A stretch of DNA of 56,482 nt, from NCBI RefSeq assembly GCF_000333395.1, contig NZ_BADA01000060.1, positions 1 through 56,482 on the forward strand. The letters are read 5' to 3'. Shown here piece by piece: positions 1 to 46,884 of this stretch. Origin of the DNA: Microbacterium sp. B19 (lineage in GTDB: Bacteria > Actinomycetota > Actinomycetes > Actinomycetales > Microbacteriaceae). How positions within the stretch are numbered: position 1 is the stretch's first letter; every line of letters starts with the position of its first letter. Under the pieces are notes generated by a model. That model was given only the letters and a program-made list of their open reading frames with translations, made no database searches and was not told the origin of the DNA. Made by a program: the position numbers and the translations under genes.

Positions 1-374
1 TCCCCGACGGGTACGCTCTGCGGCTCTCCCTCCCGTGGATCCGCTCGCTCCCCCTCGCCGGTCTCGTCGAGCCCGCGGTGCGGATCGACGGTCGTCCCCT
101 GCCCGCGACGGTCCAGCTCGGCGACCGCCGCGTCGACCCCGCCGCCCTCGAGTCCGAGACCCGGTGGTGGCACGTACAGGACCGCGTCGCCCTGCACGTG
201 ACGGATGCCGCGAGTCCTGGCATCCACGAGGTGTCGGTGTCTTTCCGTCTCGAGGTGCCGTACCTCGACGGCGGACCCGACGGGCCCCTCGCCCTTCCCT
301 TCTTCTTCACCCGTGCGCTGGACACCGAGACCCCGACGACGGGCGTCTCGCGCGACGTCGGGAGCGTCGCGTGA
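1..374 (+). CDS. C-glycoside deglycosidase beta-subunit-like (DUF6379), 5' truncated
   Basis: The open frame begins at base 3 and runs into the window from the left, so the N-terminus is missing. It starts PDGYALRLSLPWIRSLPLAG, the same opening as the other DUF6379 proteins here ([19 protein letters not shown] in the fusion at 21741). DUF6379 is the small beta-sandwich beta subunit of the two-component enzymes that break the C-C bond of 3-oxo-C-glycosides. The C-terminal part (VPYLDGGPDGPLALPFFF) is more divergent than the other copies. The stop overlaps the GTG start of the next gene (GTGA at 371-374), so it is translationally coupled to an alpha-type TIM barrel, as expected for an alpha/beta pair. 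Confidence 0.75.
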   Translation, partial: PDGYALRLSLPWIRSLPLAGLVEPAVRIDGRPLPATVQLGDRRVDPAALESETRWWHVQDRVALHVTDAASPGIHEVSVSFRLEVPYLDGGPDGPLALPFFFTRALDTETPTTGVSRDVGSVA

Positions 375-1384
375 GCGCGCTGCCCGCGGGCTGGACGCTG
401 TCGGCGAGCGCGTTCAACCTCACGCCCGAGGTCGTGCGCGCCGAGCGCACGGCGCCCGACCTCGCCCTGACGCTCGTCGAACGCGGCCTCGCCTCCGCGA
501 TCGAGGTGGAGCTCGGGCAGCTGTGGCGCGGCTATCCGGCGGCCACGCTCGCCGAGGCCCGCGCCCTGCGCGACCGCCTCGACGCCGCCGGCGGACGCGT
601 GAGCATCGTCGGCGTGAGCATCGACGAGTGGGACGGGCGTCACCGCCGCACCGACGACGAGCGCCTGGCGTTCCTCGAACCGCAGCTGCGCACCTCCGCC
701 GCGCTCGGCGCGCAGGGCGTGCGTCTCCCCCTCGGCCAGGCGGGCGCGCTCCTCGAGCGCGCGTTGCCGCTGCTCGAGGAGCACGACCTCGTGCTGTACG
801 AGGAGGCTCAGGGCCACGGGACTCCCGCCGCGGTACCCGAGGCGTACGCGCGGATCGCGGCGATCGACAGCCAGCGCGTCCGGCTGCTGCTGGACATCAG
901 CATGCTCATGCCGGCGCTCCCCGTGTCCTACCTCGACGCCCTCTCTCGCGGTGGCGTGGACCCGGCTCTCGTGGCGCGCCTGCGCGACCACTGGCGTGAG
1001 CCCGAGACCCACGGCGCCGTCATCGACCACCTGCGGTCGGGGCGCGTCCCGGGGCCGGTGCACACGTTGTACATGAACCTGCTCGTCCGCTTCGGGCGCT
1101 CGGACATCGCCGATGTGGCATCCGTCCTGCCCCTGCTCGGCGGGGTCCACCTGAAGTTCTGGGATCTCGACGACGCCGACGATCGAATTTCCGACCCGAT
1201 CCGCGACGTGGGCACCGCCCTCGCCGCGACGGGCTTCACCGGCACGCTCTGCAGCGAGTGGGGCGGCCAGGAGTGGCTCGACGACGACCCGTGGGAGACG
1301 ACCTCGCGTCATCTCTCGCTGGCCGCCGGTCTCCTCTCCGACCGTCACCCCTCCGAAACGCTGCAGAAAGCGAGCACGCCATGA
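371..1384 (+). CDS. C-glycoside deglycosidase alpha-type TIM barrel
   Basis: 337 residues, GTG start coupled to the upstream beta-subunit stop. A xylose-isomerase-like TIM barrel. Candidate metal ligands are present in the family order: Glu in LYEEAQGH, Asp in LLLDISM, His in VHLKFWD, Glu in CSEWGGQEW. Together with the preceding DUF6379 gene it forms an alpha/beta deglycosidase-like pair. It is shorter and more divergent than the alpha proteins at 8784 and 9838, so the substrate may differ, and an ordinary sugar isomerase/epimerase role is possible. The stop overlaps the next ATG (ATGA). Confidence 0.72.
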   Translation: MSALPAGWTLSASAFNLTPEVVRAERTAPDLALTLVERGLASAIEVELGQLWRGYPAATLAEARALRDRLDAAGGRVSIVGVSIDEWDGRHRRTDDERLAFLEPQLRTSAALGAQGVRLPLGQAGALLERALPLLEEHDLVLYEEAQGHGTPAAVPEAYARIAAIDSQRVRLLLDISMLMPALPVSYLDALSRGGVDPALVARLRDHWREPETHGAVIDHLRSGRVPGPVHTLYMNLLVRFGRSDIADVASVLPLLGGVHLKFWDLDDADDRISDPIRDVGTALAATGFTGTLCSEWGGQEWLDDDPWETTSRHLSLAAGLLSDRHPSETLQKASTP

Positions 1385-6362: not shown

Positions 6363-7553
6363 TCAGGAGACCGGAACGGGGGATGCCACGCTCGTCCACG
6401 CGGCGGCCGCGGCGGAGCTGCGCTCGACCGCGTCGAGGACCCGCTGCACCGAGAGGCCCTCGGCGAACGACGGGTGCGGGTCGGTCCCGCCGTCGATCGC
6501 GGCGACGAGGTCGACGACCTGGTGGGTGAAGCCGTGCTCGTAGCCGAGCATGTGACCGGCGGGCCACCACGCCGCGACGTACGGATGCACGGGTTCGGTG
6601 ACGAGGATCTGTGTGAAGCCCTGGCACCCCTCGGGGGCCGTGCGGTCGTAGAACCGCAGGCTGTTGAGGTCCTCGAGGTCGAAGGCGAGCGCCCCGCGGT
6701 CGCCCGAGACCTCGATGGTGAGGGCGTTCTTGCGGCCGGTCGCGAAGCGCGTCGCCTCGAACGACGCCAGCGCGCCGTTCGACAGGCGCCCGGTGAAGAT
6801 CGCGGCGTCGTCCACCGTGACCTCGCCGACGCCCTCGCCGGCCGAGCCCGACAGCCCCGACCCGGCGGCCTGCAGCGGACGCTGCTTCACGATCGTCTCG
6901 AGCGTCCCGGTGACGCTGTCGACGCCGAGGCCCGTGACGAACTGGGTCATGTCGATGATGTGCGCACCGATGTCGCCGAGCGCCCCCGAACCGGCGTGCT
7001 CCTTCTGCAGGCGCCAGGCGAGCGGCATCCCGGGGTCGACGAGCCAGTCCTGCCGGTACGCCGCGCGCACCTGCTGCACCGTGCCCACGGCCCCCTCGGC
7101 GATCATGTCGCGCAGCAGCGTCACCGCCGGCACGCGACGGTACGTGAATCCGACCATCGACCGGATGCCACGCGCCCGCGCCCGCTCCGCCGCCTCGGCC
7201 ATCGCCTCGGCCTCGGCCACGGTGTTCGCCAGCGGCTTCTCGCACAGCACGTGCTTGCCGGCCTCGAGCGCCGCGATCGCGATCTCGGCGTGCGAGTCGC
7301 CCGGCGTCACGATGTCGACGATGTCGATGTCGGAGCGTTCGATCACCTCGCGCCAATCGGTGGCCGATTCCGCCCAGCCCCATTTCGCGGCGGCGGATGC
7401 CACGGCATCCGCGTTCCGACCGACGACCACCGTCATCTCGACCGGGCGCGCCAGATCGAACACATGCGGCGCCTGCCGCCACCCGACGGAGTGCGCGGCC
7501 CCCATGAAGCCGTAGCCGATCATCGCCACGCGCAGGGGCTGGGCGGAGGTCAT
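6363..7553 (-). CDS. Gfo/Idh/MocA family oxidoreductase
   Basis: 396 residues. ATG 7553 overlaps the stop of the upstream DUF6379 gene, which decides the start. Rossmann motif in [14 protein letters not shown], family EKP motif in [15 protein letters not shown] near residue 105, and a C-terminal domain containing [13 protein letters not shown]. Direct coupling to a deglycosidase beta gene suggests it forms or removes the 3-keto group on the glycoside, as DgpA does in the puerarin pathway (family knowledge; assignment inferred). It is longer than the relative at 3401 and clearly not a recent duplicate of it. Confidence 0.86.
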
Positions 7554-7966
7554 GCCAGCACCAACTCGCGCTCGACCGGCACGCGGTTCGTGACGTACCG
7601 GCCGGGTCCGCCGTCGACGCCCGGCATGATCTGCATGTAGAGCAGACGCATCGTCAGGACGACCTCGACGGTGATCTTCTCTCCCGCCGCGGGCGGCGTG
7701 TCGAGGTGGATCAGCACGTCGGGGCGGTCGGCGACGAACCACAGGGTGTCGGACTGCTCCGGCAGCTCCTCGACGCGGTACTCACGGCCCTCGAGCGAGA
7801 ACCGGAGGTCCTCGGTCGGGACCGCGACACCGTTCACCGAGGCGGCGACGCCGTCGACGGCCGACAGCCAGAGGCTCCGGTACCACGGCAGCTGCACCGA
7901 GACGGCGAGCCCGTCGTCGGTACGACGGACGTCCTTCTCGGCGAAGAGCGAGTTGTGGGTGGCCAC
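7550..7966 (-). CDS. C-glycoside deglycosidase beta subunit (DUF6379)
   Basis: 138 residues from GTG 7966. Typical small beta protein: [18 protein letters not shown] near the N-terminus, [17 protein letters not shown] in the middle, and [19 protein letters not shown] near the end. This closely matches the N-terminal domain of the fusion at 21741 ([20 protein letters not shown]). The beta subunit stabilises the alpha subunit and helps close the active site in characterised CarBC/DgpBC-type enzymes. The likely alpha partner is at 8784, separated from it only by the NTF2-like gene. It overlaps the downstream oxidoreductase by 4 bp. Confidence 0.85.
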
Positions 7967-7974
7967 GGGGACTC

Positions 7975-8757
7975 CTAGGCGAAGGTGTCGACGAAGTGCT
8001 CGTGCGCGACCGGGGGCACGGGCTCGAGCTTCTGCGTCGTCTCGGGGCTGTACGGGTGGTTCTTCGACGGCACCGGCTCGTCGGCCGGGGGCATGAAGAC
8101 CGGCTTGCCGTCGTCGCCGAAGTACATCAGGTCGAGGTCGAACGCGCCCTGGTTCTTCAGGCCGAAGCTGACCCAGTTCTCCTCGAAGGGGGCACGGGCG
8201 AGCTCGTAGCAGCGGAACTTCCAGAACTTCCACTCGCCGTCCTGCTTGAGGAAGTCGATGGCGTACTTGCACCACACCCAGTGCGCCCAGACCTTCTTGC
8301 CGAGCACCTCGTCGGGCGAGTACATGTCGGGGAACTCCTCGGCGACCTTGGGGTCGGTCAGGCCCGACTCGGTGCCGGCCATGAGCCAGACGCCCTTGGC
8401 CGTCTTGCCGTCGGCGGCGACCTCGATCACGGGGGTGTTGGTGGTGTGGAGGATGAGCTTGCCCTCGGGGTGGGGGCGCCCGCGGTGGTAGTCGGTCACG
8501 CTCTGCCACGTCGTGTACTGACCGGCGTTGGTGTACCGCGCGCGGATGCCCTCGGTGCCCTCCTTCACCCACATCGGGATGATCTGCTCGTCCTCGAACG
8601 CGTTGTGCAGGAACATGTAGCGGTTGAACAGGTTCTCGACCTGTCCGCGGTCCTCGGCGCGCTGCGCGAGGGACTGGGCGGCCTCGACCTGCTCGCGCAG
8701 GCGCGCGATCTCGGCGACGAGGTCCGAGATGGATGCCTCGGTGGTGGTGTTCGACAC
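7975..8757 (-). CDS. NTF2/SnoaL-like fold protein between alpha and beta genes
   Basis: 260 residues from GTG 8757. An N-terminal helix with coiled-coil character (SDLVAEIARLREQVEAAQS) is followed by QVENLFNRYMFLHNAFED, a SnoaL-like NTF2 fold opening. The aromatic-rich core includes WVWCKYAIDFLKQDGEWKF. Such proteins act as small-ligand hydratases, cyclases or isomerases, or as scaffolds. It lies exactly between a deglycosidase alpha gene and a beta gene on the same strand with short gaps (8 and 26 bp), so it is probably made with them. A role in aglycone handling is inference; no catalytic residues can be assigned with confidence. Confidence 0.72.
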   Translation of the reverse strand: MSNTTTEASISDLVAEIARLREQVEAAQSLAQRAEDRGQVENLFNRYMFLHNAFEDEQIIPMWVKEGTEGIRARYTNAGQYTTWQSVTDYHRGRPHPEGKLILHTTNTPVIEVAADGKTAKGVWLMAGTESGLTDPKVAEEFPDMYSPDEVLGKKVWAHWVWCKYAIDFLKQDGEWKFWKFRCYELARAPFEENWVSFGLKNQGAFDLDLMYFGDDGKPVFMPPADEPVPSKNHPYSPETTQKLEPVPPVAHEHFVDTFA

Positions 8758-8783
8758 GGGTACTCCTTCGTTGGTGATGGGTG

Positions 8784-9818
8784 TCAGGCCGGCTGGCGCG
8801 CGGCGACGGTTTCTTCGATGGCGGTGCGCATGAGGGCGTGCTGCTTCTTGACGAGGTCGATCGGGTCGCTCTCGCCGAGGTCGCTGAAGGCGTGGCCCTC
8901 CCACTCGCTGGAGAGGTAGCCCTGGTATCCGCCCTCGACGAATTGCTTCACGATGCGCGGAATGTCCATGGCGGGCTCCTGGCCGTCGGCCCCGATGTCG
9001 TAGAACTTCGCGTGGACGTGGAAGATCTGCGGCATGATGTCGAGCCACTCCTCCGGCGCCACCAGCCCGTGCATGTTGAACGCGAGGCGCGTGAACGGCC
9101 CGAAACGCAGCGGGTCGACACCCTCTCCCGAGAGGTAGTCCTCGAACTTCTGGTTGCGCACGTGCATGGGGGTCGGCTCGTGCCAGATCTCGTCCATAAC
9201 GGGGAAGTGCTTCTCGTCCATGCCCATCTGGCCGAGCGTGCGCAGCAGCGTCGGGGAGAGGGAGTGCATGGTCGAGGAGAAGTCGGCGGTGAAGCCGAGG
9301 CGGTCGCTGCCGAGCTCCTCGTACACCTCGCGGATCTCGAGCACCTTCGGGTCGTTCGGGCCGGAGGGCGCGTGGATCTCGTAGCCCAGCTTCTGGTCGT
9401 ACTTCTCGGCGAGGGGCAGCAGGCGGCGGAGCAGTTCCTTGCCGGCCGAACGGATGACGACTCGCTTGAAGCCGAGCGTGTGCGCCGACTTCAGCTGGCG
9501 TGCGAAGAAGTCGTGCTCCTCGTCGGGCGTCATGTCGCGGTCCTTGCGGCGCCCCATGTCGAGGTTGGTGCCGACCGCGCTGGCCTCGAGGCCGTACTTC
9601 TCCAGCGAGTCGAACCACAGCTTCACGAAGTCGTCGTCCACGTCGGGGTACGACCGCAGCAGCTGCGCGAAGTTGAACTCCACGCCCGGGCCGATGCCCT
9701 GGTCGTGCACCTCGCGGATCAGCGTCTCGGGGGTGTACAGCCCCGCGGCGAACTCGCTCGTCATCGAGTAGAGGGTGGTCCCGAGCTGGATGCCGGTCCC
9801 GGCGATGCCGTCCGTCAT
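8784..9818 (-). CDS. C-glycoside deglycosidase alpha subunit (TIM barrel)
   Basis: 344 residues. Opens QLGTTLYSMTSEFAAGLYT and contains NLDMGRRKDRDMTPDEE, as in the TIM domain of the fusion at 21741. Metal ligands expected for the family: Glu in LGYEIHAPSG, Asp in FTADFSSTMH, His in FHVHAKFYDIG, Glu in YLSSEWEGHAF. In CarBC/DgpBC-like enzymes a divalent metal and a nearby His support beta-elimination of the aglycone from the 3-keto glycoside. The matching beta subunit is probably the one at 7550. ATG 9818 is the only start consistent with the neighbouring gene boundary. Confidence 0.86.
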   Translation of the reverse strand: MTDGIAGTGIQLGTTLYSMTSEFAAGLYTPETLIREVHDQGIGPGVEFNFAQLLRSYPDVDDDFVKLWFDSLEKYGLEASAVGTNLDMGRRKDRDMTPDEEHDFFARQLKSAHTLGFKRVVIRSAGKELLRRLLPLAEKYDQKLGYEIHAPSGPNDPKVLEIREVYEELGSDRLGFTADFSSTMHSLSPTLLRTLGQMGMDEKHFPVMDEIWHEPTPMHVRNQKFEDYLSGEGVDPLRFGPFTRLAFNMHGLVAPEEWLDIMPQIFHVHAKFYDIGADGQEPAMDIPRIVKQFVEGGYQGYLSSEWEGHAFSDLGESDPIDLVKKQHALMRTAIEETVAARQPA

Positions 9819-9837: not shown

Positions 9838-10941
9838 TCAGGCGCGCACGGCGTGCGACAGGTGGGCGTCGATGGCGCGCCGGGCCTCGGCGGCATCCGT
9901 GATCATCCGGGAGCCGGCGGCCTCGGCGGCCGTGCGCTGGATCGCCTGCTCGGCGCGGATGATCTCGAACGGGCTCTGCCAGTGGTTCCAGTGCCAGCCC
10001 TCGTACTCGCTCGAGACCGCGCCGCTGTAGCCGTTGTCGACGAGCAGCGTGATGAGGTCGGCGACGGGGACCGAGGGTTCCTGGCCGTTCTCGTCGATGC
10101 CGAAGAACTTGCCGTGCACGTGACGCACCCACGGCATGATCTCGAGCCAGTCGTCGACCCGCGCCGGGCCGAAGAGGCCCGTGCCGTTGATGCCGAGATC
10201 GATCCCGAGGTCGGGACGGCCGAACTGGTGCGAGAGGCCGATGAACCGGCCGAACCGCTGGCCGTGGTCGGCCTGGTCGGCGGGCGGGCCCTGCTCGTAG
10301 TACTCGTCCCACAGGGCGACGACGGCGGCGAGCAGCTCCTCCGACGCGCCGCGGCGTCGGTACGCCTCGAGGAGCGAAGGCGCGAAGCCGGTGACCGTGG
10401 CGCCCCAGTCCATCGTGAAGCCGAGGAACGGCGACCCGACCTGCTCGTAGCGGTCGCGGAGCGCGAGGATCCGCGGGTGCGAGGCGTACTGGTCGGCGTG
10501 GACCTCGAGCGCCAGGGTCACGCCGTACTCCTCGGCGATGGGCGCGAGAGCCTCCATCGAGTCCGGCGTGAGCGAGATCTGCACGCGGGCGATCGGGAAA
10601 CCGAGCTTCGCCGCCGCCGCGATCTGGCGGCGCATGTAGGCGATGAGCTCGTCCTGGTCCATGAGCTTGTCCGGCCGCAGACCGATGTCGGCGTTGACCG
10701 CGAGCGAGGTGCGGACCAGGCCGACCTCGTCGATCAGGTCGGAGAAGCGTCCGGCGAAGTGGTCGTCGATCTCGGGGAAGCCGCGGAAGCTGGAGAACCC
10801 GATGATCTCGAGGCCCGGCCCGAAGCCCTCGGCCGCGGTCTTGCGGATGAGCTGGTCGAGGTCGTACTCACGCCCGTGGAACGCGCGGGTGAAGCTGTAC
10901 AGCGTGACGCCCTGGATGGGCGTGCCCTTCGCCGCGGTCAT
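9838..10941 (-). CDS. C-glycoside deglycosidase alpha subunit (TIM barrel), second type
   Basis: 367 residues; ATG 10941 overlaps the stop of the beta gene at 10938, the classical coupled beta-alpha arrangement. Opens QGVTLYSFTRAFHGREYDL. Candidate ligands: Glu in LALEVHADQY, Asp in FTMDWGATV, His in RHVHGKFFGID, Glu in VSSEYEGWHW. It is divergent from the alpha protein at 8784, with a different segment after the third ligand and a C-terminal extension ending in SHAVRA, so it probably takes a different aglycone. Two dissimilar alpha genes in tandem within one operon is unusual. Confidence 0.85.
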   Translation of the reverse strand: MTAAKGTPIQGVTLYSFTRAFHGREYDLDQLIRKTAAEGFGPGLEIIGFSSFRGFPEIDDHFAGRFSDLIDEVGLVRTSLAVNADIGLRPDKLMDQDELIAYMRRQIAAAAKLGFPIARVQISLTPDSMEALAPIAEEYGVTLALEVHADQYASHPRILALRDRYEQVGSPFLGFTMDWGATVTGFAPSLLEAYRRRGASEELLAAVVALWDEYYEQGPPADQADHGQRFGRFIGLSHQFGRPDLGIDLGINGTGLFGPARVDDWLEIMPWVRHVHGKFFGIDENGQEPSVPVADLITLLVDNGYSGAVSSEYEGWHWNHWQSPFEIIRAEQAIQRTAAEAAGSRMITDAAEARRAIDAHLSHAVRA

Positions 10942-11345
10942 GCGAGCGCCTCCTCGGCCTGACGGACCGTCATCGTCTTGGTGTCGTGCTCCTCGATGTG
11001 GAGCACCTGGTCGTCGGCGATGATGATGTACGGGATGTAGAGCTCGAGGTCGACGCGGACCTCGTGCTCGCCGGCGTCCACCTCCAGGTCGCCCGAGAGC
11101 ACGGCGGAGTCGGTGGGGAACCACCACTGCTCGGTGTTCGTCTTCATCTCGGCGAACGTGAACTCCGCGCCGTTCATCTGCCAGCGCAGCGTCTCGGCCG
11201 GAGCCTCGGCGCCGTCGATCGTGAGCTTCGCGGCGGAGATGCAGGATGCCGGGAGCGCGCGGTACCAGGGAAGGCGGACTTCGACGGCCGCCCGTCCGTC
11301 GCGGACGCTCAGCGTGCCCTGTTCGATGATGCGATCCGGGATCAC
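10938..11345 (-). CDS. C-glycoside deglycosidase beta subunit (DUF6379), second type
   Basis: 135 residues from GTG 11345, with a strong ribosome site GAGGAGG about 5 bases upstream that fixes the start. Contains AVEVRLPWYRALPASCISAA at the N-terminus and VDLELYIPYIIIADDQVLHI in place of the GVDGGPG loop of the 7550 and 21741 proteins. It is translationally coupled to the alpha gene at 9838. It is the first gene of the minus-strand set that continues to 3401, downstream of the 86-bp gap carrying a CATAAG element. Confidence 0.83.
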   Translation of the reverse strand: MIPDRIIEQGTLSVRDGRAAVEVRLPWYRALPASCISAAKLTIDGAEAPAETLRWQMNGAEFTFAEMKTNTEQWWFPTDSAVLSGDLEVDAGEHEVRVDLELYIPYIIIADDQVLHIEEHDTKTMTVRQAEEALA

Positions 11346-11434: not shown

Positions 11435-12949
11435 TCAGACGAGGGATGCCACGATCGCGCGCGCCCCGCGGACCGCCAGCGCCACGGACGTCAACGTCGG
11501 ATTGCACGCCGTCGCGGTGGGGATGACGCCGTTCCCGGCGACGAACAGACCCGGGACGCCCCAGACCTGGCTGTCGACGTCGCACACGCTCGTCCCGTCG
11601 TCCTCGGTCCCCATGCGCGTGGTGCCCTGGTAGTGCAGCGACGAGCCGAGCGGCAGGGTGAAGGGCCGGTCGCCGACCGGGTCGCCGACCGCCTCGGCCA
11701 GACGCGTGATCTCCGCGCGGGCGCGTTCGATCACCTCGTGGTCGCGATCGGTGAGGACGTAGTGGATGCGGGGAGCCGGCATCCCGTACCCGTCCACGTG
11801 CGCGTCGTCGAACTCGACCCGGTCGTCGGCCCGCAGGTCCTTCGCGCAGAAGAGGCCGAGACCGACGATCGACCCGGGGACGACCGGGTCGTCCTCGGCG
11901 AGCGCGATCGGCGAGGCGTCGAGCTGCATGATCTGGCCGTGGAACGGCACGGCGTCGGTGAAGGGCACCCAGCTGACGCCGCTGTACTCGGCGAGCCCCG
12001 TCGTCGGGGAGTCGTCCCCGAGCGGGGCGACGTCGCGCAGGCGCGAGGCGTAGACGACCTGGGACTGGTCGTTGAGATAGCGCCCGAGGGCGGCCGGGCG
12101 GACGCCCGACGCCCACAGCAGCTGGGGGGTGCGCAGTGCGTCGGCGGCGACGACGACCGCCCGCGCGGCGATCTCGTGTTCCTCGCCCGACCGGAGGTCG
12201 CGCACGACCACCCCCGCGGCGCGGCCGTCGGCGAGCACCACCGAGGTCACGAGCGACTCGTCGAGGAGCGTGAAGGCCGGGTTCGCCCGCGTTACGTCCC
12301 CCAGGACGACGTCCGAGCCCGACCACACGAGACGGCCGTCGTCGCGCCGGTGCACGGCGAGTGGCATCCGCTGCACCTTCGTCGCCTCGGTACGGCCGGC
12401 GTCGACCGCGGCCGCGAGACGCTCGCGCACGATCTCCCCGAACGGGGCGGAATCGAAGGCGTTCCGCGTGACTCCGAGGAGACGCTCCGCCTCGACGAGG
12501 AGCTCGTCCATGTCGGGGAGGAACGCGATGCGCTCGCTCTCGTTCGGCCACGGGCACGCGCCGGTCCAGTGGGCGGCCATGCCGCCGACGTTGCTCGACA
12601 TCGCCGCGACCGGCAGGCCGTCCTCGCCCTCGAAGACGTAACCGTCGTCGAGCAGGAACGTTCCGGGACGCGCCCCGCGCACCCCGGCCTTGGCGGCACC
12701 GGGGCTGGCGACCTTCTCGCCGCGCTCCCCCGGGCCCTCGGACGCCACCTGCGCGCGCGTGCGCTCGGCCGGCTCGGCGATGTTCTTGACGTGCGCGCCG
12801 GGCGGGTCGGACACGGTCGGGCCCACCTCGAACATCGCGACGGTCAGGCCGGGTGCGCGCTCCGAGAGCACGCGGGCGTACGCGGCGCCCGTCGGGCCGC
12901 TACCGACGATCGCGACGTCGACCGATTCCGGGTACTCGCGCGCGCTCAT
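11435..12949 (-). CDS. GMC-family FAD oxidase/dehydrogenase, CarA-like sugar 3-oxidase
   Basis: 504 residues. FAD-binding Rossmann motif DVAIVGSGPTGAAYARV at residues about 10-26. C-terminal GMC active-site region has His in SSLHYQGTTRMG and Asn in ATACNPTLTSVAL, matching the His/Asn pair of pyranose oxidases. CarA-type enzymes from Microbacterium oxidise C3 of the sugar in C-glycosides such as carminate, giving the substrate for CarBC (family knowledge). Position between importer genes and deglycosidase genes supports that role. ATG 12949 overlaps the upstream Hyi stop by 4 bp. Alternative: a generic pyranose dehydrogenase. Confidence 0.85.
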   Translation of the reverse strand: MSAREYPESVDVAIVGSGPTGAAYARVLSERAPGLTVAMFEVGPTVSDPPGAHVKNIAEPAERTRAQVASEGPGERGEKVASPGAAKAGVRGARPGTFLLDDGYVFEGEDGLPVAAMSSNVGGMAAHWTGACPWPNESERIAFLPDMDELLVEAERLLGVTRNAFDSAPFGEIVRERLAAAVDAGRTEATKVQRMPLAVHRRDDGRLVWSGSDVVLGDVTRANPAFTLLDESLVTSVVLADGRAAGVVVRDLRSGEEHEIAARAVVVAADALRTPQLLWASGVRPAALGRYLNDQSQVVYASRLRDVAPLGDDSPTTGLAEYSGVSWVPFTDAVPFHGQIMQLDASPIALAEDDPVVPGSIVGLGLFCAKDLRADDRVEFDDAHVDGYGMPAPRIHYVLTDRDHEVIERARAEITRLAEAVGDPVGDRPFTLPLGSSLHYQGTTRMGTEDDGTSVCDVDSQVWGVPGLFVAGNGVIPTATACNPTLTSVALAVRGARAIVASLV

Positions 12950-21740: not shown

Positions 21741-23216
21741 TCAGACTGCCGGCACCGCCCGCATCGAGGCGCGGATGAGGTCGTGCTGGCGCCGCACGAG
21801 CAGCAGCGGGTCGACCTCGCCGAGTTCGGCGAACGCGTGGCCCTCCCACTCGCTCGACCAGAAGCCGCGGTACCCGCCCTCGACGAACACGCGCACGAGT
21901 TCGGGGTAGTCGATCGCCGGCTCCTGGCCGTCGTCGTCGATGTCGTAGAACTTGGCGTGCACGTGAAGGATCTGCGGCATGATGTCGGCCCACTCGCGCG
22001 GGTCGACGCGGCCGTGCATGTTGAACGCGAGGTGCGCGAACGCGCCGAGGCGCCCCGGGTCGAAGTCCCGGCCGCGGAGGTAGCCGAGGAACTCCTGCTG
22101 ACGCGCTTGCATGGTGGCATCCGTCGCCCAGATCTCCTGGAGACGCGCGACCGCGTCGTCGTCGAGGCCCGCGCGGCGGACGGCCCGCAGCAGGGTCGGC
22201 GACATCGCGTGCATGGTCGAGGAGAAGTCGGCGACGAATCCCAGCAGCGGCGAGTCGAGCTCGGCGTACGTCTCGCGCACGCGCAGGATCGGATCGGCGT
22301 TAGGGCCCATCGGCGCGTGGATCTCGTACGCCAGCTTCAGCTCGAGGTCCTCCGCGATCGGCAGCAGCCGGCGCAGCAGGTCGGGTTTGGCCGACTGGAT
22401 GCGCACGAGCGGGAATCCGAGCTTCTTCGCCCCCTCGAACATGAGGGTCGAGAAGGCGAACTCCTCGTCCGGCGTCATGTCGCGATCGCGCCGGCGCCCC
22501 ATGTCGAGGTTGGCCCCGAACGAGCTCGCGACGAACCCGTGCCGGTCGAACGCCGCGCGCCACGTGCGCACGAAGTCGTCGCCGACGACCGGATAGGTCG
22601 GGACCATCTGGGATGCCACGATCTCGATGCCCGGTCCGATCCCGAGCTCCGCGACCCGGTCGAGCAGGCCGTCGAAGTCGTACCATCCGGCGCGGAACTC
22701 CGCACTGGCGGAGTACAGCGTCAGCCCCAGCTGGAACGGGTCGTCGTCGGTCGCGGGGGGCGCGGGCGCCACCTCGTGCACGAGCGCCGGGGGCGTGGCA
22801 TCCGCGTCGACGACCGTCAGCGTCTTCACGTCGTGGACCACGTTCGGGACGTACATCCCGGGTCCGCCGTCGACCCCGGGCGCGATCTGCATGTACGGCA
22901 GGCGCAGCTCGCCGTGCAGCACGACCTCGTGCGTCTCGCCGAGGGCGACGGGCTCGGCGAGACGGGCCACCAGCGTCGGGTGCTGCTGCAGGAACCACAG
23001 CGTCTCGCTCTGCTCGGGCAGCTCGTCGAGCCGGTAGCGGCGGTCGCCGAGTTCGAACTGGAGGTCGTTGGCATCCACTCGCTCCCCGTCGACGGAGAGG
23101 TCGAGCGACGTGACCGACGACAGCCACAGGCTGCGGTACCAGGGGATCGTCAGCCGCAGCGCGAGACCGTCCGGGTGGGGACGGAGGCTGTCGTCGTGGA
23201 TCAGTCCGTTCGGCAC
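21741..23216 (-). CDS. Fused C-glycoside deglycosidase: beta (DUF6379) plus alpha (TIM barrel)
   Basis: 491 residues in a single frame. Residues about 10-130 are a complete beta domain ([52 protein letters not shown]). A Pro/Ala/Asp-rich linker spans about 136-160. Residues 161-491 are an alpha TIM barrel (LGLTLYSASAEFRAGW, NLDMGRRRDRDMTPDEE). Ligand positions are all present: Glu in LAYEIHAPMG, Asp in FVADFSSTMH, His in LHVHAKFYDID, Glu in WSSEWEGHAFAE. Characterised enzymes use two polypeptides, so this is a natural one-chain version. It is closest to the 7550 and 8784 pair in the same locus. Confidence 0.88.
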   Translation of the reverse strand: MPNGLIHDDSLRPHPDGLALRLTIPWYRSLWLSSVTSLDLSVDGERVDANDLQFELGDRRYRLDELPEQSETLWFLQQHPTLVARLAEPVALGETHEVVLHGELRLPYMQIAPGVDGGPGMYVPNVVHDVKTLTVVDADATPPALVHEVAPAPPATDDDPFQLGLTLYSASAEFRAGWYDFDGLLDRVAELGIGPGIEIVASQMVPTYPVVGDDFVRTWRAAFDRHGFVASSFGANLDMGRRRDRDMTPDEEFAFSTLMFEGAKKLGFPLVRIQSAKPDLLRRLLPIAEDLELKLAYEIHAPMGPNADPILRVRETYAELDSPLLGFVADFSSTMHAMSPTLLRAVRRAGLDDDAVARLQEIWATDATMQARQQEFLGYLRGRDFDPGRLGAFAHLAFNMHGRVDPREWADIMPQILHVHAKFYDIDDDGQEPAIDYPELVRVFVEGGYRGFWSSEWEGHAFAELGEVDPLLLVRRQHDLIRASMRAVPAV

Positions 23217-23226
23217 GGCGGCCGCC

Positions 23227-24528
23227 TCAGAGCCGGTCGGCGATCTGGCGGATGAGCGAGTGCTGGCGGCGCACCTGCTCGATCGAGCGCCACGGCTCGC
23301 GCTCGCCCTCGTACTCGCTGGAGAGGTAGCCGGTGTACCCGGCGTCCTTCAGCGCGCGGAGCACGGGTTCCCACGGGATCTGCTTGTCGTCGAGCTCTTC
23401 GTCGATGTCGTGGAACTTCGCCTGGATGAACACCACGTTGTCGATCACGTCGAACACGTCGTTCGGGTCGACATGGATGCCATCGAGGAACGCCGGGCGC
23501 TGGCCGGGCAGCTCGCCGGGCTTGAGCGGGATCGGGCGGTCCTGGAAGATCCCGGTGTCCAGCAGCAGCCCGAAGTGCTTCGTGCCGGTGCGGCGGATGA
23601 GAGCGATGTAGTCCTCGACCACCTCGTGCTTGATGGGCGTCGGCGAGTGGATCTCGGGGCAGATGATGACGTCGAGTTCTTCCGCGAGCGGGAGCGATGC
23701 CTCGACGGCCTCGGTCCAGATCGGGTGCGGGACGAGGTCGCTCGACACGACACCGATCTTCGGCCGCACGAACCGGAAGCCCAGGCGCTTCGCGAGGCGC
23801 AGGTCGCGCTGCAGGGCGGCGGCGCCCTCCTCCACGGTCATGTCGCGGCCGTTCGGGCCGCTGGAGTGCAGGCGCGTGTCGATCCAGGAGCCGTAGTTCG
23901 TCGGCTCGAGGCCGTACTTCTGCAGCAGCGCGAACCACTGCTCGACCCACTCGTCGGAGGGGTTCGGGTAGTTCGGGATGTGCGCCTCGCCGAGGATCTC
24001 GAGGCCGGTCGCGCCGATGTCGGCGATCGAGGCCATCGCGGTCTCGAGGTCCATGACCGTGCCGAAGTCGCTCATGTAGCTGTACAGCGAGACGCCATAC
24101 TGGAAGGGAGCGCCGGATGCCTCGGGCGCGAGCGTGACGTGCTTGGTCACGCGGTACGTGCTGGGCTGGTGCTCCTGAGGGATGTACGACATCCGCAGCC
24201 GCAGTTCGATCGACAGCTCGTGCACGCCGTCGGGCAGACCGCCCGGGAGCGGCACGGTCACGATCGCCGCGTCCTCGAGCGGCCAGCGCACGCCGTCGCC
24301 GTCCCATAGCTCGGCGAGCGTGTACTGCTTCCCCTGCAGCGTCCACAGCGGCACGTCGGGCGCGACGTCGACGAGCCCGGGGATGCTCACACCGATGCCG
24401 TCGATGAGGGAGGCGGCCATGCCGCGGTACGACGGCATCCGGACGCGGAACTGGAAGCCGGTGATCTCACCGCCCTCGCGGACGTTGCGGAATCCGACGG
24501 ACTGGATGAGGTCTCTTTCGAGAAGCAT
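23227..24528 (-). CDS. Second fused deglycosidase-like protein: DUF6379-like plus TIM barrel
   Basis: 433 residues, first gene of the two-gene minus-strand unit; ATG 24528. Residues about 15-130 form a divergent beta domain (FQFRVRMPSYRGMAASLIDG, YTLAELWDGDG, LRMSYIPQEHQPSTYRVTK). Residues 140-433 are a TIM barrel (YGVSLYSYMSDFGTVMDLE, SWIDTRL). Ligand-like residues: Glu in IICPEIHSPTP, Asp in LLLDTGIFQ, His in QAKFHDIDEE displaced from the usual HVHAK, and Glu in YLSSEYEGERE. The usual His motif reads FIQAKFHD, so the third ligand may be Gln. Likely different substrate or activity from the 21741 protein. Confidence 0.8.
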   Translation of the reverse strand: MLLERDLIQSVGFRNVREGGEITGFQFRVRMPSYRGMAASLIDGIGVSIPGLVDVAPDVPLWTLQGKQYTLAELWDGDGVRWPLEDAAIVTVPLPGGLPDGVHELSIELRLRMSYIPQEHQPSTYRVTKHVTLAPEASGAPFQYGVSLYSYMSDFGTVMDLETAMASIADIGATGLEILGEAHIPNYPNPSDEWVEQWFALLQKYGLEPTNYGSWIDTRLHSSGPNGRDMTVEEGAAALQRDLRLAKRLGFRFVRPKIGVVSSDLVPHPIWTEAVEASLPLAEELDVIICPEIHSPTPIKHEVVEDYIALIRRTGTKHFGLLLDTGIFQDRPIPLKPGELPGQRPAFLDGIHVDPNDVFDVIDNVVFIQAKFHDIDEELDDKQIPWEPVLRALKDAGYTGYLSSEYEGEREPWRSIEQVRRQHSLIRQIADRL

Positions 24529-27970: not shown

Positions 27971-28618
27971 TCAAGCCCTTTGTGCCACAGGATCCCCGCC
28001 TGATCTAACGAACGACGAGGTACCTGTCGTCAGTGAGTCGGTGTCCTGCGCAGCATCGTGCTTCGCCAGTGCCCGCGACACGGACGATTTCCCCACGCCG
28101 AGAACGTTCGCGATCTGCACCAAGCTCAACTTCTGTTCGTCACGCATCCGCACCGCGGCCGCGACGCGCTCGGGCGTCATCACGGAGGGTCGACCTCCCA
28201 CGCGCCCCTGAGCGCGAGCATGCGCGAGCCCACGCTTCGTGTTGTCGCGTATGGTGTCGACGCGCAGCTGCGCGAATACCGCGACGATCCCGAACAACGC
28301 CCGACCCATCGGTGTCGTCGTGTCGATATCCGGCTCGGTGAGACTCCGGATGTTCACACCTCGCTCGTGGAGGTCGGTGATCGTCTCGATAGCCATCTTC
28401 TCGCTGCCCGCCAGCCGGTCCAGCCGGCGGACCAACAGGGTGTCGCCAGGGCGGAGATAGTCCAGGCATGCGAGCCACTGTGGGCGGTCCTTGACCCGGC
28501 TGGACTCGCCGTGGTCGACGAACACACGGCCCGCGCCCGCCGCGCGCAGCTCAGCCTCCTGAGCGGCCGGGTTCTGGTCGTGACGCGACACCCGGGCATA
28601 CCCCACAACGTTGCTCAT
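27971..28618 (-). CDS. Serine recombinase (resolvase/invertase family)
   Basis: 215 residues. Catalytic Ser in VVGYARVSRHDQNPAAQ (residue 11), followed by LVRRLDRLAGSEKMAIETI, the active-site Arg region of small serine recombinases. C-terminal helix-turn-helix: MTPERVAAAVRMRDEQKLSLV then IANVLGVGKSSVSRALAKH. Small family members synapse two sites, cut both strands and rotate, using crossover sites of 12-2-12 bp. ATG 28618 overlaps the stop of the zeta-type toxin gene by 4 bp, so the recombinase is co-expressed with the toxin-antitoxin pair. Confidence 0.93.
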   Translation of the reverse strand: MSNVVGYARVSRHDQNPAAQEAELRAAGAGRVFVDHGESSRVKDRPQWLACLDYLRPGDTLLVRRLDRLAGSEKMAIETITDLHERGVNIRSLTEPDIDTTTPMGRALFGIVAVFAQLRVDTIRDNTKRGLAHARAQGRVGGRPSVMTPERVAAAVRMRDEQKLSLVQIANVLGVGKSSVSRALAKHDAAQDTDSLTTGTSSFVRSGGDPVAQRA

Positions 28619-29787
28619 CGCCCCACCCCTCGATCGTTGCCGTACCGTGCGCCCGGCAAGTACGGGTCGCTCCTCCGCGCCGCCGGCCCGCCTGCAGGCG
28701 GAGTGCCGCGCGTGGCATCCGGCGACGACAGCGGCGGCCGGATGTCGGGTGCGGCGAGCCCGGTTTGCGCGCGCCGCACGGCCTCGAAACCGTCGAGACG
28801 ATCAGCGCTCGTCGACGGCGTACCGCGATCGCCGACGCCAGCATCCAGAACCTCCGCGGCGGCGTGCAGCGCCTTCAGCGCCTCACGCTGCGCTCGCTCG
28901 TCACCGGGGAACGCGACCTGTACGACGTCGCCGGCGTCCTCGAGCGCGAGGCGGCGTGCGACCCGCACCAGGTCGGGATCACTCCGCCGCAGCCGCGCCG
29001 TCTCGCGCACCGCCTCACCGGTGTAGCCGATCCAGTCGCGGGCTTGTGCAGCGGTGAGCGAGCGCACGTCGCGCGCCTGATCCACCGCGGCCGCGACCTG
29101 CCCCCCCCCCCCCCCCCCCAGGTCCGCTCCCCCCGCGGCCGCGTGCGCGTCGAGAAACACACGCCCGGGGCGATCCTGCACCACGACCCGATCGACTACC
29201 CCTGCAGCCACGAGCTCGCGGACCGTGCCCCGCACGTTCGCCGAGGCCTCGTCGTGCGCAGCGCCAGGGGTCCACCGGCCCGTGCCGTAGTCCTTGACCT
29301 GCTCCACGTAGCGGGCCACGGTGCCCGCGCGTGAGACGGCCAATGGAACGGCCACCACACGCAACTCCGTCTCAAACCCTGCCTCGCGGAACGCCTCGAA
29401 CTCTCCCCGCAACATCGACTCGTTGCGCAGCGTCGTCTCCACGATCGCGCTCACGCCGACACCGCGCAGATACTCCGTCGACATCCCGACCCACGCGCCC
29501 GCGGCCGCCGCTGTGACTTCCGGCATCCGGAACGGGTCGAGGTTCATCGTCTGCTCGTACTCGGGATGGAACCGGCGTAGATCGTCGCCGTTCACCACAA
29601 CCGCTCCGGGAAGGGCGCTCTGCATCGCTGCGAGCACTCCGCCCTTTCCGGCGCCGGGCTGTCCTCCCACCGAGACAAACCGAGGGCGCCCGATAATGGC
29701 CCCCTCACGCTGGGGTTCGAGGTAGACGGGAACGATCGTGCGATCGAACCGTCGACGCAGCTGATCCGGGGTCAGCTGCTCGCTCAC
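28615..29787 (-). CDS. Zeta-type toxin (UDP-sugar kinase-like P-loop toxin)
   Basis: 390 residues from GTG 29787. Walker A in RFVSVGGQPGAGKGG at residues about 37-50, followed by VVVNGDDLRRFHPEYEQ, where the Asp is the likely catalytic base, and ETTLRNESMLRGEFEAFREA. Zeta toxins phosphorylate UDP-N-acetyl sugars and block wall synthesis (family knowledge). A run of 19 G on the coding strand encodes six glycines near residues 224-229, between the kinase core and a Pro/Arg-rich tail. The small partner at 29784 overlaps it by 4 bp upstream, and the recombinase overlaps downstream. Confidence 0.85.
   Translation of the reverse strand: MSEQLTPDQLRRRFDRTIVPVYLEPQREGAIIGRPRFVSVGGQPGAGKGGVLAAMQSALPGAVVVNGDDLRRFHPEYEQTMNLDPFRMPEVTAAAAGAWVGMSTEYLRGVGVSAIVETTLRNESMLRGEFEAFREAGFETELRVVAVPLAVSRAGTVARYVEQVKDYGTGRWTPGAAHDEASANVRGTVRELVAAGVVDRVVVQDRPGRVFLDAHAAAGGADLGGGGGGQVAAAVDQARDVRSLTAAQARDWIGYTGEAVRETARLRRSDPDLVRVARRLALEDAGDVVQVAFPGDERAQREALKALHAAAEVLDAGVGDRGTPSTSADRLDGFEAVRRAQTGLAAPDIRPPLSSPDATRGTPPAGGPAARRSDPYLPGARYGNDRGVGR
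29101..29119. repeat. 19-base homopolymer (C on plus strand) inside toxin gene
   Basis: An uninterrupted C19 on the plus strand (G19 in the coding sense). Such a run is prone to slipped-strand length change; a change not divisible by three would shift the toxin frame after its kinase core and disturb coupling to the recombinase gene. It is flanked by GACCT and AGGTC, a short inverted repeat. Sequencing or assembly error in the tract length is a real alternative. Confidence 0.8.
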
Positions 29788-30053
29788 GCAGCCATGACCG
29801 GCGCGTGAGCCGGCATCGTCGCCCACAGCTCGCGCAGCTCGGCACGCTTCGCCTCGATCGCGTCCGCGTCATTGGGGTCGACCAGGCGCACCTGGCGCTG
29901 CATCTCGATGTGCGCGTACGTCCAGTGTCGACCTGCCGCCTCACTCGGGGCCTGATCGACCCAGGAGACATACCGGCCACCGATCCGGGTGGCCAGCTCG
30001 AGCAGGGCGTCATACGCCATCGGGTTCAAGACTCGTCCCGTGGTGTCGGACAT
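29784..30053 (-). CDS. Zeta-partner antitoxin (small acidic protein)
   Basis: 89 residues: MSDTTGRVLNPMAYDALLEL, then RYVSWVDQAPSEAAGRHWTY and an acidic helix DPNDADAIEAKRAELRELW. The size, the position immediately upstream and the 4-bp overlap with the zeta-type toxin gene make it the antitoxin. Its sequence differs from the classical epsilon family. It is the first gene of the antitoxin-toxin-recombinase operon. Upstream lie several CGTTTCGGGAC-type half-sites that could be operator or recombination sites. Confidence 0.75.
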   Translation of the reverse strand: MSDTTGRVLNPMAYDALLELATRIGGRYVSWVDQAPSEAAGRHWTYAHIEMQRQVRLVDPNDADAIEAKRAELRELWATMPAHAPVMAA

Positions 30054-45357: not shown

Positions 45358-45408
45358 AACTTAGGTCTGATGGTTGGGGCGCCGGGGTCGACCGGATACC
45401 GTTTCACG

Positions 45409-46884
45409 ATGACCACCAAGCACGTGTTCCTTTCGTACATCCGAGAGGACAGCGCTCAAGTCGACAAGCTGCAGAGAGTGCTCGAAGCGGCAGACTTTTC
45501 TGTGTGGCGTGACACCGCCAACCTGTGGCCTGGGGACGACTGGCAGCAGAAGATTCGCCAGGCGATCCAGGGCGGCACGCTCGTCTTCCTCGCTTGCTTC
45601 TCGAGCGCACTAAAGGCCCGCGACACCTCGTACCAGTTCGCCGAGCTGATGCTCGCCGCCGACGAATATCGACTGCGTCCGCTCGACACGAGCTGGTTGA
45701 TGACAATCAGATTCGACGAATGCGAGATCCCGTCTGTCGATCTCGGGGGTGGCCGGTTCCTAGACCGAACGATCCACCGACTCGACCTCTTCGGGGAACA
45801 CGAGTCGGCGCAGCAGGCCCGCCTCATTACCGCTCTCCATCGAGTCATGCAGACAAGCCCTGGATCACCCTCGGGCAATGTACTGGCCGCGGTTGCCGCA
45901 TCGAAACGAGCCGACACGAGCCTCGACCACTTGCGCGACCTGATTCGTAATCCAAATCTGGTCATGAACTACGACGCGTACCTGAGCTCTTTGCGTCGCC
46001 CAGCGCTCCGTGATCTGGCTGACCGGGAAAGGTTCCCGATCAGCGGCCCCAGCGGTCAGATCGATGCCGAGATCGCGAAGGCGTGGCTCGCCCGGATTCT
46101 CGACTACGAGGACATCGTGGTCGATCTCCTCGAGCCTCTGAAGCTGATCGGAGAGTACGGCCAGACTCAGCATCACGATGAGCTCACCAGAACCATGAGA
46201 GCCTTCGCGCAGGAATGCACTCAGTCAGCAGGTCTCGACCTGTTCCGATCTGCCCACCAGTATCCGGCTCTGCTCCTGAGCTACGTGCTGGGCCTCGCGG
46301 CAGTCAGCAAGAGCAACTACGGCATGCTCCGCGCCGGAGTCGCTGATGTCGTCGTGAGGACGCTCAACTCTCAAGCCCCGTTCATCCTGATGTCTGGAGC
46401 GGGCCGCATACCAGGGAACTGGAATTGGCTAGGTTCACTGCTCTGCAAGCGGGATGAGAACATCCCCGTCGATGATGGCCTGATCGGCTCGCTCGCATCT
46501 GGCCGCATCGGCGCGCGGTACACCCCGATATCGGACCACCTGTACACCCTCTTAGCTCCCTTGTTCGCCGATCAGTTCGTCAGCGACGAGGACTACGCCG
46601 ATGCGTACGACCGGGTCGAAATACTGCTGGACGCGATTGCCGCCGACGCGAAGCAACAGAGCGGAAGCTATGTCAGCGCCCGCGGCGGATACGGCCGCTA
46701 TACCTGGCGCCACGAGCACGCCGAGATTCCACCGGAAAGACGCATGCTCGACGAGGCGCAGGCAGCCGGGGCCGGCTGGACCCCACTGCTAGGCGGTCTC
46801 TTTGGCGGCGACACCAACCGCGCCGTCGCCGCGCTCACGGTGGTTGTAGAAAATGCGCGGAGTCTTTCCTTCGGTCGGCATTGA
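45409..46884 (+). CDS. TIR-domain protein, candidate defence effector
   Basis: 491 residues from ATG 45409; an in-frame ATG at 45370 would add 13 residues without TIR similarity. N-terminal TIR domain, residues 3-145: HVFLSYIREDSAQVDKLQRV, LWPGDDWQQKIRQAI and FLACFSSALKARDTSYQFAE, the last with the position of the NADase catalytic Glu (YQFAELML). The remaining 340 residues are helical and unrecognised, perhaps a sensor region. Bacterial TIR proteins often deplete NAD+ upon phage infection; no other defence gene of a known system is present. Confidence 0.85.
   Translation: MTTKHVFLSYIREDSAQVDKLQRVLEAADFSVWRDTANLWPGDDWQQKIRQAIQGGTLVFLACFSSALKARDTSYQFAELMLAADEYRLRPLDTSWLMTIRFDECEIPSVDLGGGRFLDRTIHRLDLFGEHESAQQARLITALHRVMQTSPGSPSGNVLAAVAASKRADTSLDHLRDLIRNPNLVMNYDAYLSSLRRPALRDLADRERFPISGPSGQIDAEIAKAWLARILDYEDIVVDLLEPLKLIGEYGQTQHHDELTRTMRAFAQECTQSAGLDLFRSAHQYPALLLSYVLGLAAVSKSNYGMLRAGVADVVVRTLNSQAPFILMSGAGRIPGNWNWLGSLLCKRDENIPVDDGLIGSLASGRIGARYTPISDHLYTLLAPLFADQFVSDEDYADAYDRVEILLDAIAADAKQQSGSYVSARGGYGRYTWRHEHAEIPPERRMLDEAQAAGAGWTPLLGGLFGGDTNRAVAALTVVVENARSLSFGRH

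Follow-up and report, generated by a model that had tools for sequence, protein, structure and literature searches.

Two adjacent minus-strand genes of Microbacterium sp. B19, which we call P1 and P2, very probably encode two different C-glycoside deglycosidases (CGDs), each with its beta and alpha subunits joined in one polypeptide, beta first. They lie on contig NZ_BADA01000060.1 of the draft assembly GCF_000333395.1 (576 contigs, 87% complete); this contig, 56,482 nt in all, is the window analysed here. P2 belongs to the Microbacterium testaceum type, for which a structure is already public, and the second gene is therefore not new. Judged by its sequence, P1 is a separate, widely conserved single-chain variant that looks undescribed and is novel within the searches we made. 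The activity and substrates of P1 and P2, like the packing of the P1 beta domain, are what we infer.

Both genes encode a beta domain and a TIM barrel in one frame

P2 lies upstream of P1, with 10 nt between the two genes (Table 1). In both, the beta domain comes first and a xylose-isomerase-like TIM barrel follows in one continuous frame, an arrangement that an initial annotation had read from the nucleotide sequence and that Pfam and the reading frames confirmed. P1 matched CGDB (PF19906) at residues 16-108 with 51.6 bits, and P2 matched it at residues 3-115 with 109.9 bits (cut-off 27.6); P2 also matched AP_endonuc_2 at residues 167-415 (72.5 bits). DUF6379, the name given to the first domain in that annotation, is a label for the beta subunit in some PDB entries. 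Since third-position GC is 0.94-0.95 in both genes and homologues retain the frame, the frames are not chance.

The Pro/Ala/Asp-rich linker noted in P1 was also borne out. Among the full P1 copies described below, 76 of 78 could be measured by sequence anchors, and the content of these three residues in their linkers averaged 63% (range 36-86%). In the P2 model, about 9 residues separate the last strand of the beta domain from the first strand of the barrel. Alignment of the P2 alpha domain with the lid-bearing alpha subunit of the Deinococcus aerius CGD skipped about 57 residues of the latter; thus, the P2 alpha domain probably has no lid.

P2 belongs to a solved single-chain type

The best solved matches of P2 over its whole chain were 8qrz_A and 8un2_A. 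The two entries, 8QRZ (X-ray) and 8UN2 (cryo-EM), released 2025-04-23, are titled "Microbacterium testaceum C-glucosyl deglycosidase (CGD), wild type" and hold the enzyme as one chain. P2 is identical to 8QRZ at 415 of 433 positions (96%), and the 8QRZ sequence is that of the P2-type gene of M. testaceum NS220 (locus L072, 433/433). An AlphaFold2 model of P2 made without templates (mean predicted local distance difference test score [pLDDT] 88.3, predicted template modelling score [pTM] 0.88) superposed on 8qrz_A at 1.8 Å over 432 residues, and its fold matches to CGDs had Z scores of 31-50. P2 and the M. testaceum enzyme have the same domain order, the same fusion point and the same Gln at the third metal ligand, and they match over their full length. 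Given this single-chain relative, the view in the initial annotation that known enzymes are assembled from two polypeptides is out of date, and we rejected the idea that the single-chain form is unknown for P2. Literature searches found no publication on 8QRZ or on CGD fusions.

Other CGDs are more distant from P2. EuCGD (DfgA-B of Eubacterium cellulosolvens, PDB 7BVS/7DRE) has an alpha subunit 38-40% identical to that of P2 in a single aligned stretch, but is described as a two-chain alpha4-beta4 enzyme with His as the third ligand (PMC8563793). PuCGD (DgpB-C) and the D. aerius CGD (8QVC/8UMC) have alpha and beta folds in common with both P1 and P2; they differ in being made of two chains, and their alpha subunits are 24-31% identical to P1 and 25-33% to P2. 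The D. aerius enzyme is the subject of a J Mol Biol 2024 paper, according to a reference in PMC11673046.

P1 resembles AgCGD2 in a single chain

The alpha half of P1 matched 7dnm_A with 430 bits, and the beta half matched 7dnm_B with 89.9 bits. These are the subunits of AgCGD2 (AgCarB2-C2 of Arthrobacter globiformis, PDB 7DNM/7DNN), and the P1 alpha domain is 57-58% identical to its counterpart. In a model of P1 (mean pLDDT 88.8, pTM 0.88), the alpha domain superposed on 7dnm_A with Z 43.8 (2.0 Å over 336 residues) and the beta domain on 7dnm_B at 1.8 Å; fold matches to CGDs ranged from Z 31 to 44. AgCGD2 is reported to be a heterodimer of two polypeptides (PMC8563793), whereas P1 is one chain.

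By alignment, the metal ligands of P1 are E298, D330, H420, K422 and E456, with H300 as the base; E458 is also kept. All five ligands and both catalytic residues of AgCGD2 are thus present. The initial annotation was right that the first fusion keeps every expected ligand, although it counted four and the set published for AgCGD2 has five (E, D, H, K, E; PMC8563793). P1 also retains S275, which contacts the sugar, Y168 and N399, which contact the aglycone, and the pocket residue M400 (roles as given in PMC8563793). With M400 and F393, its pocket resembles that of AgCGD2, which points to a preference of P1 for C8. In AgCGD2 numbering, the residues with kept equivalents are Y17, S124, E147, H149, D179, N248, M249, H269, K271, E305 and E307.

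P1 has the single-chain beta-alpha order in common with the M. testaceum CGD but is only 22-26% identical to it. The P1 linker is 27 residues long in the models, against 9, and P1 has the lid-bearing alpha type and His as the third ligand. We found no solved single-chain structure of the P1 (AgCGD2) type.

Both fusions are conserved in other genomes

To describe how the fusions are distributed, we used a family set of 398 genomes drawn from Microbacteriaceae and a phylum set of 396 genomes, each including the genome of the window, together with 14 control genomes. A further set consisted of the best 80 of 232 P1 relatives in a scan of named genomes. The CGDB domain was detected in 27 of the 398 family genomes and 5 of the 396 phylum genomes, and was not found in the 14 control genomes.

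P1 had a match in 25 family genomes and was full length in one frame in 20. P2 likewise matched in 25: as an intact fusion in 14, as a frame-broken fusion in one (G364), as a split set in nine and as a distant partial match in one (G232). No genome in this tally combined an intact fusion with a split P2-type set. Among the 80 named loci, P1 was full and unbroken in 78, the others ending at a contig edge (L140) or being frameshifted (L141). The P2-type gene was fused in 68, split in four, cut by a contig edge in one and not detected in the fetched stretch in seven. In 63 of the 68 loci with a fused P2-type gene, P1 starts -8 to 87 nt from the stop codon of that gene. Pairwise alignment showed the ligands and base of P1 to be conserved in all 78 full copies, His at the third position included. 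Fused P2-type copies have the same ligands and base except for Gln at the third position in 67 of 68; the 68th ends short of the last ligand.

P1 thus occurs in dozens of named Microbacteriaceae and Micrococcaceae, including the source species of AgCGD1/2 and MtCGD. In A. globiformis NBRC 12137 (L127), the two fusions are found about 8.4 kb away from the gene for the AgCGD2 alpha subunit; M. trichothecenolyticum DSM 8608 (L129) is also among the 80 best loci. Loci L140 and L141, titled Fulvimarina (a metagenome-assembled genome) and Planococcus, carry actinobacterial-looking P1 and P2 genes with 81-85% identity to those of the window in the main matches; these are probably contamination of the two assemblies.

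Frames broken in related strains, which the initial annotation had named as evidence that would count against the fusions, turned out to be rare, with two of 80 P1 loci cut or frameshifted and one P2-type copy broken. Taken with PF19906 and a barrel in frame and with the CGD matches, the conserved frames support the reading of both genes as single-chain beta-alpha versions of the deglycosidase. The broken copy belongs to G364 (L050), which has a split P2-type set in addition to the broken fusion and 11 CGDB matches in all, as though the fused enzyme had given way to a split one.

P1 and P2 probably became fused separately

Split P2-type pairs read beta then alpha, and stop and start codons overlap as ATGA in nine of ten (L056 is the exception). 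In G226, G360, G103, G304 and G028, such a pair directly adjoins the P1 fusion, in the slot taken elsewhere by the P2 fusion. For the AgCGD2-type genes, both the window and L097 show the opposite order to P1, with alpha ahead of beta. As far as investigated by Mori et al. 2021, subunit genes lie side by side (PMC8563793).

We built an alpha tree of 79 domains (323 alpha rows thinned to 75, plus four PDB chains) and an alpha+beta tree of 37 rows thinned from 148 pairs, both rooted at midpoints. Two P1 rows, L141 (frameshifted) and L157 (cut), were dropped before the alpha tree was made, as was L088, a fusion of a third type that is truncated at the end of its locus and fell under the length filter. 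In the alpha tree, P1 fusions and split AgCGD2-type rows formed one group (support 100). The 21 fused P2-type rows formed another with L090, which is cut by a contig end (99), and split P2-type rows and EuCGD fell outside it. P1 is therefore not in the fused clade of 8QRZ: its alpha domain groups with AgCGD2, while the P2-type fusions have a clade of their own. The alpha+beta tree united all 18 P1 fusions in a single clade (97/91), whose sister group was the split AgCGD2-type pairs; two more split types branched outside.

We rejected a single common fusion event for P1 and P2, since they fall in separate clades in both trees. With split relatives outside each clade, P1 and P2 would most simply have been fused separately, each from a split ancestor. 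Because the roots are midpoints, the direction, fusion or fission, is one we can only infer. The alpha tree requires at least six fused/split changes, one of them an artefact (L090, at a contig end), and fusion has probably happened, or been undone, several times. The count from the beta tree (15) was not used, as "split" labels in the P1 clade include loci cut at the 1.5-kb flanks.

The third type, split in the window, adds to this pattern. It is one chain in Agromyces L091, G321, G028 and G103, and in Agromyces L088 as far as that locus reaches; it is split in Agromyces L096, L122, L139 and several other genomes. It was poorly resolved in the alpha tree, which does not distinguish fusion from loss of fusion within this type.

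The beta domain of P1 may sit differently from that of the M. testaceum enzyme

Models were used to check whether the N-terminal domains pack as beta subunits, as the initial annotation had proposed. This held for P2, which matches 8QRZ over the whole chain. The P1 domains match AgCGD2 singly, and their placement differs from that in 8QRZ: over the whole chain, the P1 model superposed on 8QRZ at 16.9 Å (400 residues, VIA-align) or 17.5 Å (Foldseek). Since the domains fit one by one, the modelled P1 beta domain appears to take a different position with respect to the barrel from that in 8QRZ. P1 and the M. testaceum-type fusions may therefore not cap the active site alike. On the models, either one fusion type would cap the active site of a neighbouring chain, or the P1 model misplaces the beta domain. 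Linker lengths of 27 and 9 residues, together with the states of the two-chain relatives (a heterodimer for AgCGD2 and alpha4-beta4 for EuCGD; PMC8563793), make capping in cis by P1 and a swapped arrangement in the M. testaceum type plausible. We tentatively suggest, though we would not bet on it, that the single-chain state arose repeatedly among CGDs (P1, P2 and the third type) and that the fusions pack differently, with P1 capping its own barrel as in the AgCGD2 heterodimer and the M. testaceum type that of a neighbour by domain swap, or the reverse.

Proposed mechanism and alternative readings

The mechanism described in the literature for two-chain CGDs would apply to P1 and P2 as follows. 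The sugar would probably first be oxidised at C3 by a glucose-methanol-choline (GMC) oxidase of the same gene group; the bond between 3-oxo-sugar and aglycone would then be cleaved through the action of a His base and a divalent metal bound in the barrel, while the beta domain would cap the substrate and form part of the aglycone pocket. Equivalents of AgCGD2 H149, E147, D179, K271 and E305 are all present, as H300, E298, D330, K422 and E456 in P1 and as H294, E292, D324, K371 and E405 in P2. In AgCGD2, the N-terminus of the beta subunit lies near the substrate (Thr3 of beta), which would favour the beta-alpha order.

P1 or P2 might instead act by beta-elimination mainly on 3-oxo-O-glycosides or on some other 3-keto-sugar, with C-glycosides as side substrates. 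LgdB1, whose barrel is also of family PF01261, is reported to be a 3-keto-levoglucosan beta-eliminase (PMC10066097), and there are five CGD sets in the window, so that specificities have probably diverged. We nevertheless consider this unlikely, since the enzyme with which P2 shares 96% identity was deposited as a C-glucosyl deglycosidase and the aglycone contacts of the AgCGD2 alpha subunit are kept in P1. Far less credible is a role of P1 and P2 as common sugar (phosphate) isomerases that carry an additional domain. Database names point that way (the PDB molecule name of 8qrz_A is "Sugar phosphate isomerase"), and the TIM fold is common to epimerases, which matched with Z of about 21-25. However, CGD matches are well above these values for both models, the CGDB domain is present, and a 3-oxidase-like gene lies in the same group.

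The altered third-ligand motif of the second fusion, which had been taken as a hint of changed chemistry, is real: by alignment, the ligands of P2 are E292, D324, Q369, K371 and E405, with H294 as the base, and Q369, in FIQAKFHD, stands where EuCGD and AgCGD2 have His. Replacing this His by Ala (H269A) strongly reduces the activity of PuCGD and MiCGD (PMC8563793), and with Gln in P2 and its relatives, one could argue for a different metal or for changed or lost activity in P2. But Gln is also found in 8QRZ, deposited as a CGD, in every intact fused P2-type copy read (14 in the family set and 68 in the named-locus set, which overlap) and in eight of ten split P2-type alphas, the other two (G171 and G045) reading TTAKHD there. 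Gln is thus a mark of the subfamily and not an oddity of P2 or of the fusion; that it arose together with the fusion was rejected, as split relatives carry it. With the other four ligands and the base kept as well, a change of metal or activity seems rather improbable. On this alignment evidence, Gln alone does not indicate new chemistry, and apart from this residue we see no support for changed chemistry in P2. Least probable of all, to the point of being negligible, is that the fused frames are artefacts of sequencing or assembly. The window does come from a contig of a draft assembly, but the P1 fusion recurs in 20 and the intact P2 fusion in 14 of the 398 family genomes, and in 78 and 68 of the 80 named loci; we rejected artefactual fusion on these conserved frames.

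Several observations weigh against our reading of P1 and P2 as two single-chain CGDs of separate origin. The AP_endonuc_2 match of P1 (residues 186-469, 29.4 bits) is under the 31.1 cut-off. P1 has Gln at AgCGD2 Arg123 and Ala at Pro241 (Ser in most orthologues), and in P2 the His of the third ligand position is missing, a residue whose change to Ala strongly lowers PuCGD and MiCGD activity (PMC8563793). Over its full chain the P1 model fails to fit 8QRZ (16-18 Å), each domain fitting its own reference. The P1 fusions form one group with a support of only 74 in the alpha tree. Finally, three P1 betas (Pseudoclavibacter, Demequina and Curtobacterium) group in the beta tree with split betas of AgCGD2 type (93), so that a split form derived from a fused one would be conceivable.

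Breakage of aryl C-glycosidic bonds is rare chemistry, useful for plant and drug glycosides, and a single-chain enzyme does not need balanced co-expression of two subunits. P1, which belongs to the AgCGD2 branch and has its full ligand set, offers itself as such an enzyme. As the same operon slot holds a fused form in some genomes and a split one in others, the effect of fusion can be tested cleanly. If repeated fusion with different packing is true, the family would offer a natural experiment on what drives heteromeric enzymes to fuse, as its P2 and third types occur in both forms among related genomes.

Gene surroundings and further deglycosidase sets

The GMC oxidoreductase of the gene group (Table 1) matched 7qf8_A with 793 bits and 7dve_A with 787, which we take to be a glycoside 3-oxidase and MtCarA, respectively. 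The group also contains two other split alpha/beta sets, two Gfo/Idh/MocA oxidoreductases, other TIM-barrel proteins, and an ATP-binding cassette (ABC)-type solute-binding protein with adjoining membrane-protein genes. Its predicted content fits glycoside uptake, oxidation at C3 and cleavage by several deglycosidases of different type.

Table 1. Coordinates of the two fused genes, their parts and other features of the window
Feature	Position	Strand	Remark
P1, single-chain CGD, AgCGD2 (lid-bearing) type	21741..23216	-	491 amino acids, GTG start
P1 beta domain, residues 1-134	22815..23216	-	CGDB PF19906; best solved sequence match 7dnm_B
P1 linker, residues 135-161	22734..22814	-	17/27 residues Pro/Ala/Asp
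P1 alpha domain, residues 162-491	21744..22733	-	TIM barrel; gap-free alignment to AgCGD2 alpha
P2, single-chain CGD	23227..24528	-	433 amino acids, ATG start; 415/433 identical to PDB 8QRZ
P2 beta domain, residues 1-133	24130..24528	-	from Pfam and model
P2 short linker, residues 134-142	24103..24129	-	from model
P2 alpha domain, residues 143-433	23230..24102	-	EuCGD-like; from sequence and fold matches
P2 Q369 codon	23422..23424	-	in FIQAKFHD; position of AgCGD2 His269
Third-type beta gene	3..374	+	cut by left edge of window; stop/next start overlap GTGA 371-374, read from frames
Third-type alpha gene	371..1384	+	split here, fused in some other genomes
Separate beta gene b1	7550..7966	-	groups with P1-type betas in tree; taken as AgCGD2-type beta
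SnoaL-like protein gene	7975-8783	-	between AgCGD2-type alpha gene and b1, parting the subunit genes
Separate alpha gene a1	8784..9818	-	81% identical to AgCGD2 alpha (7dnm_A)
Separate alpha gene a2	9838..10941	-	TIM barrel
Separate beta gene b2	10938..11345	-	stop overlaps alpha start, ATGA 10938-10941
GMC oxidoreductase	11435..12949	-	probable C-glycoside 3-oxidase supplying 3-oxo substrate
Resolvase-type recombinase gene beside zeta-toxin-like gene	27971-29826	-	
TIR-domain protein	45370-46884	+	504 amino acids, PF13676

Aligned by eye, third-type alphas read E-A-Q or E-I-Q where others read E-I-H, the window copy having EEAQG against EIHAP. With Gln in place of the usual base His, the base of this type may differ from His. 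A mobile element may adjoin the glycoside gene group, with the recombinase and zeta-toxin-like region as its edge, and the TIR-domain (Toll/interleukin-1 receptor) protein is possibly a defence gene.

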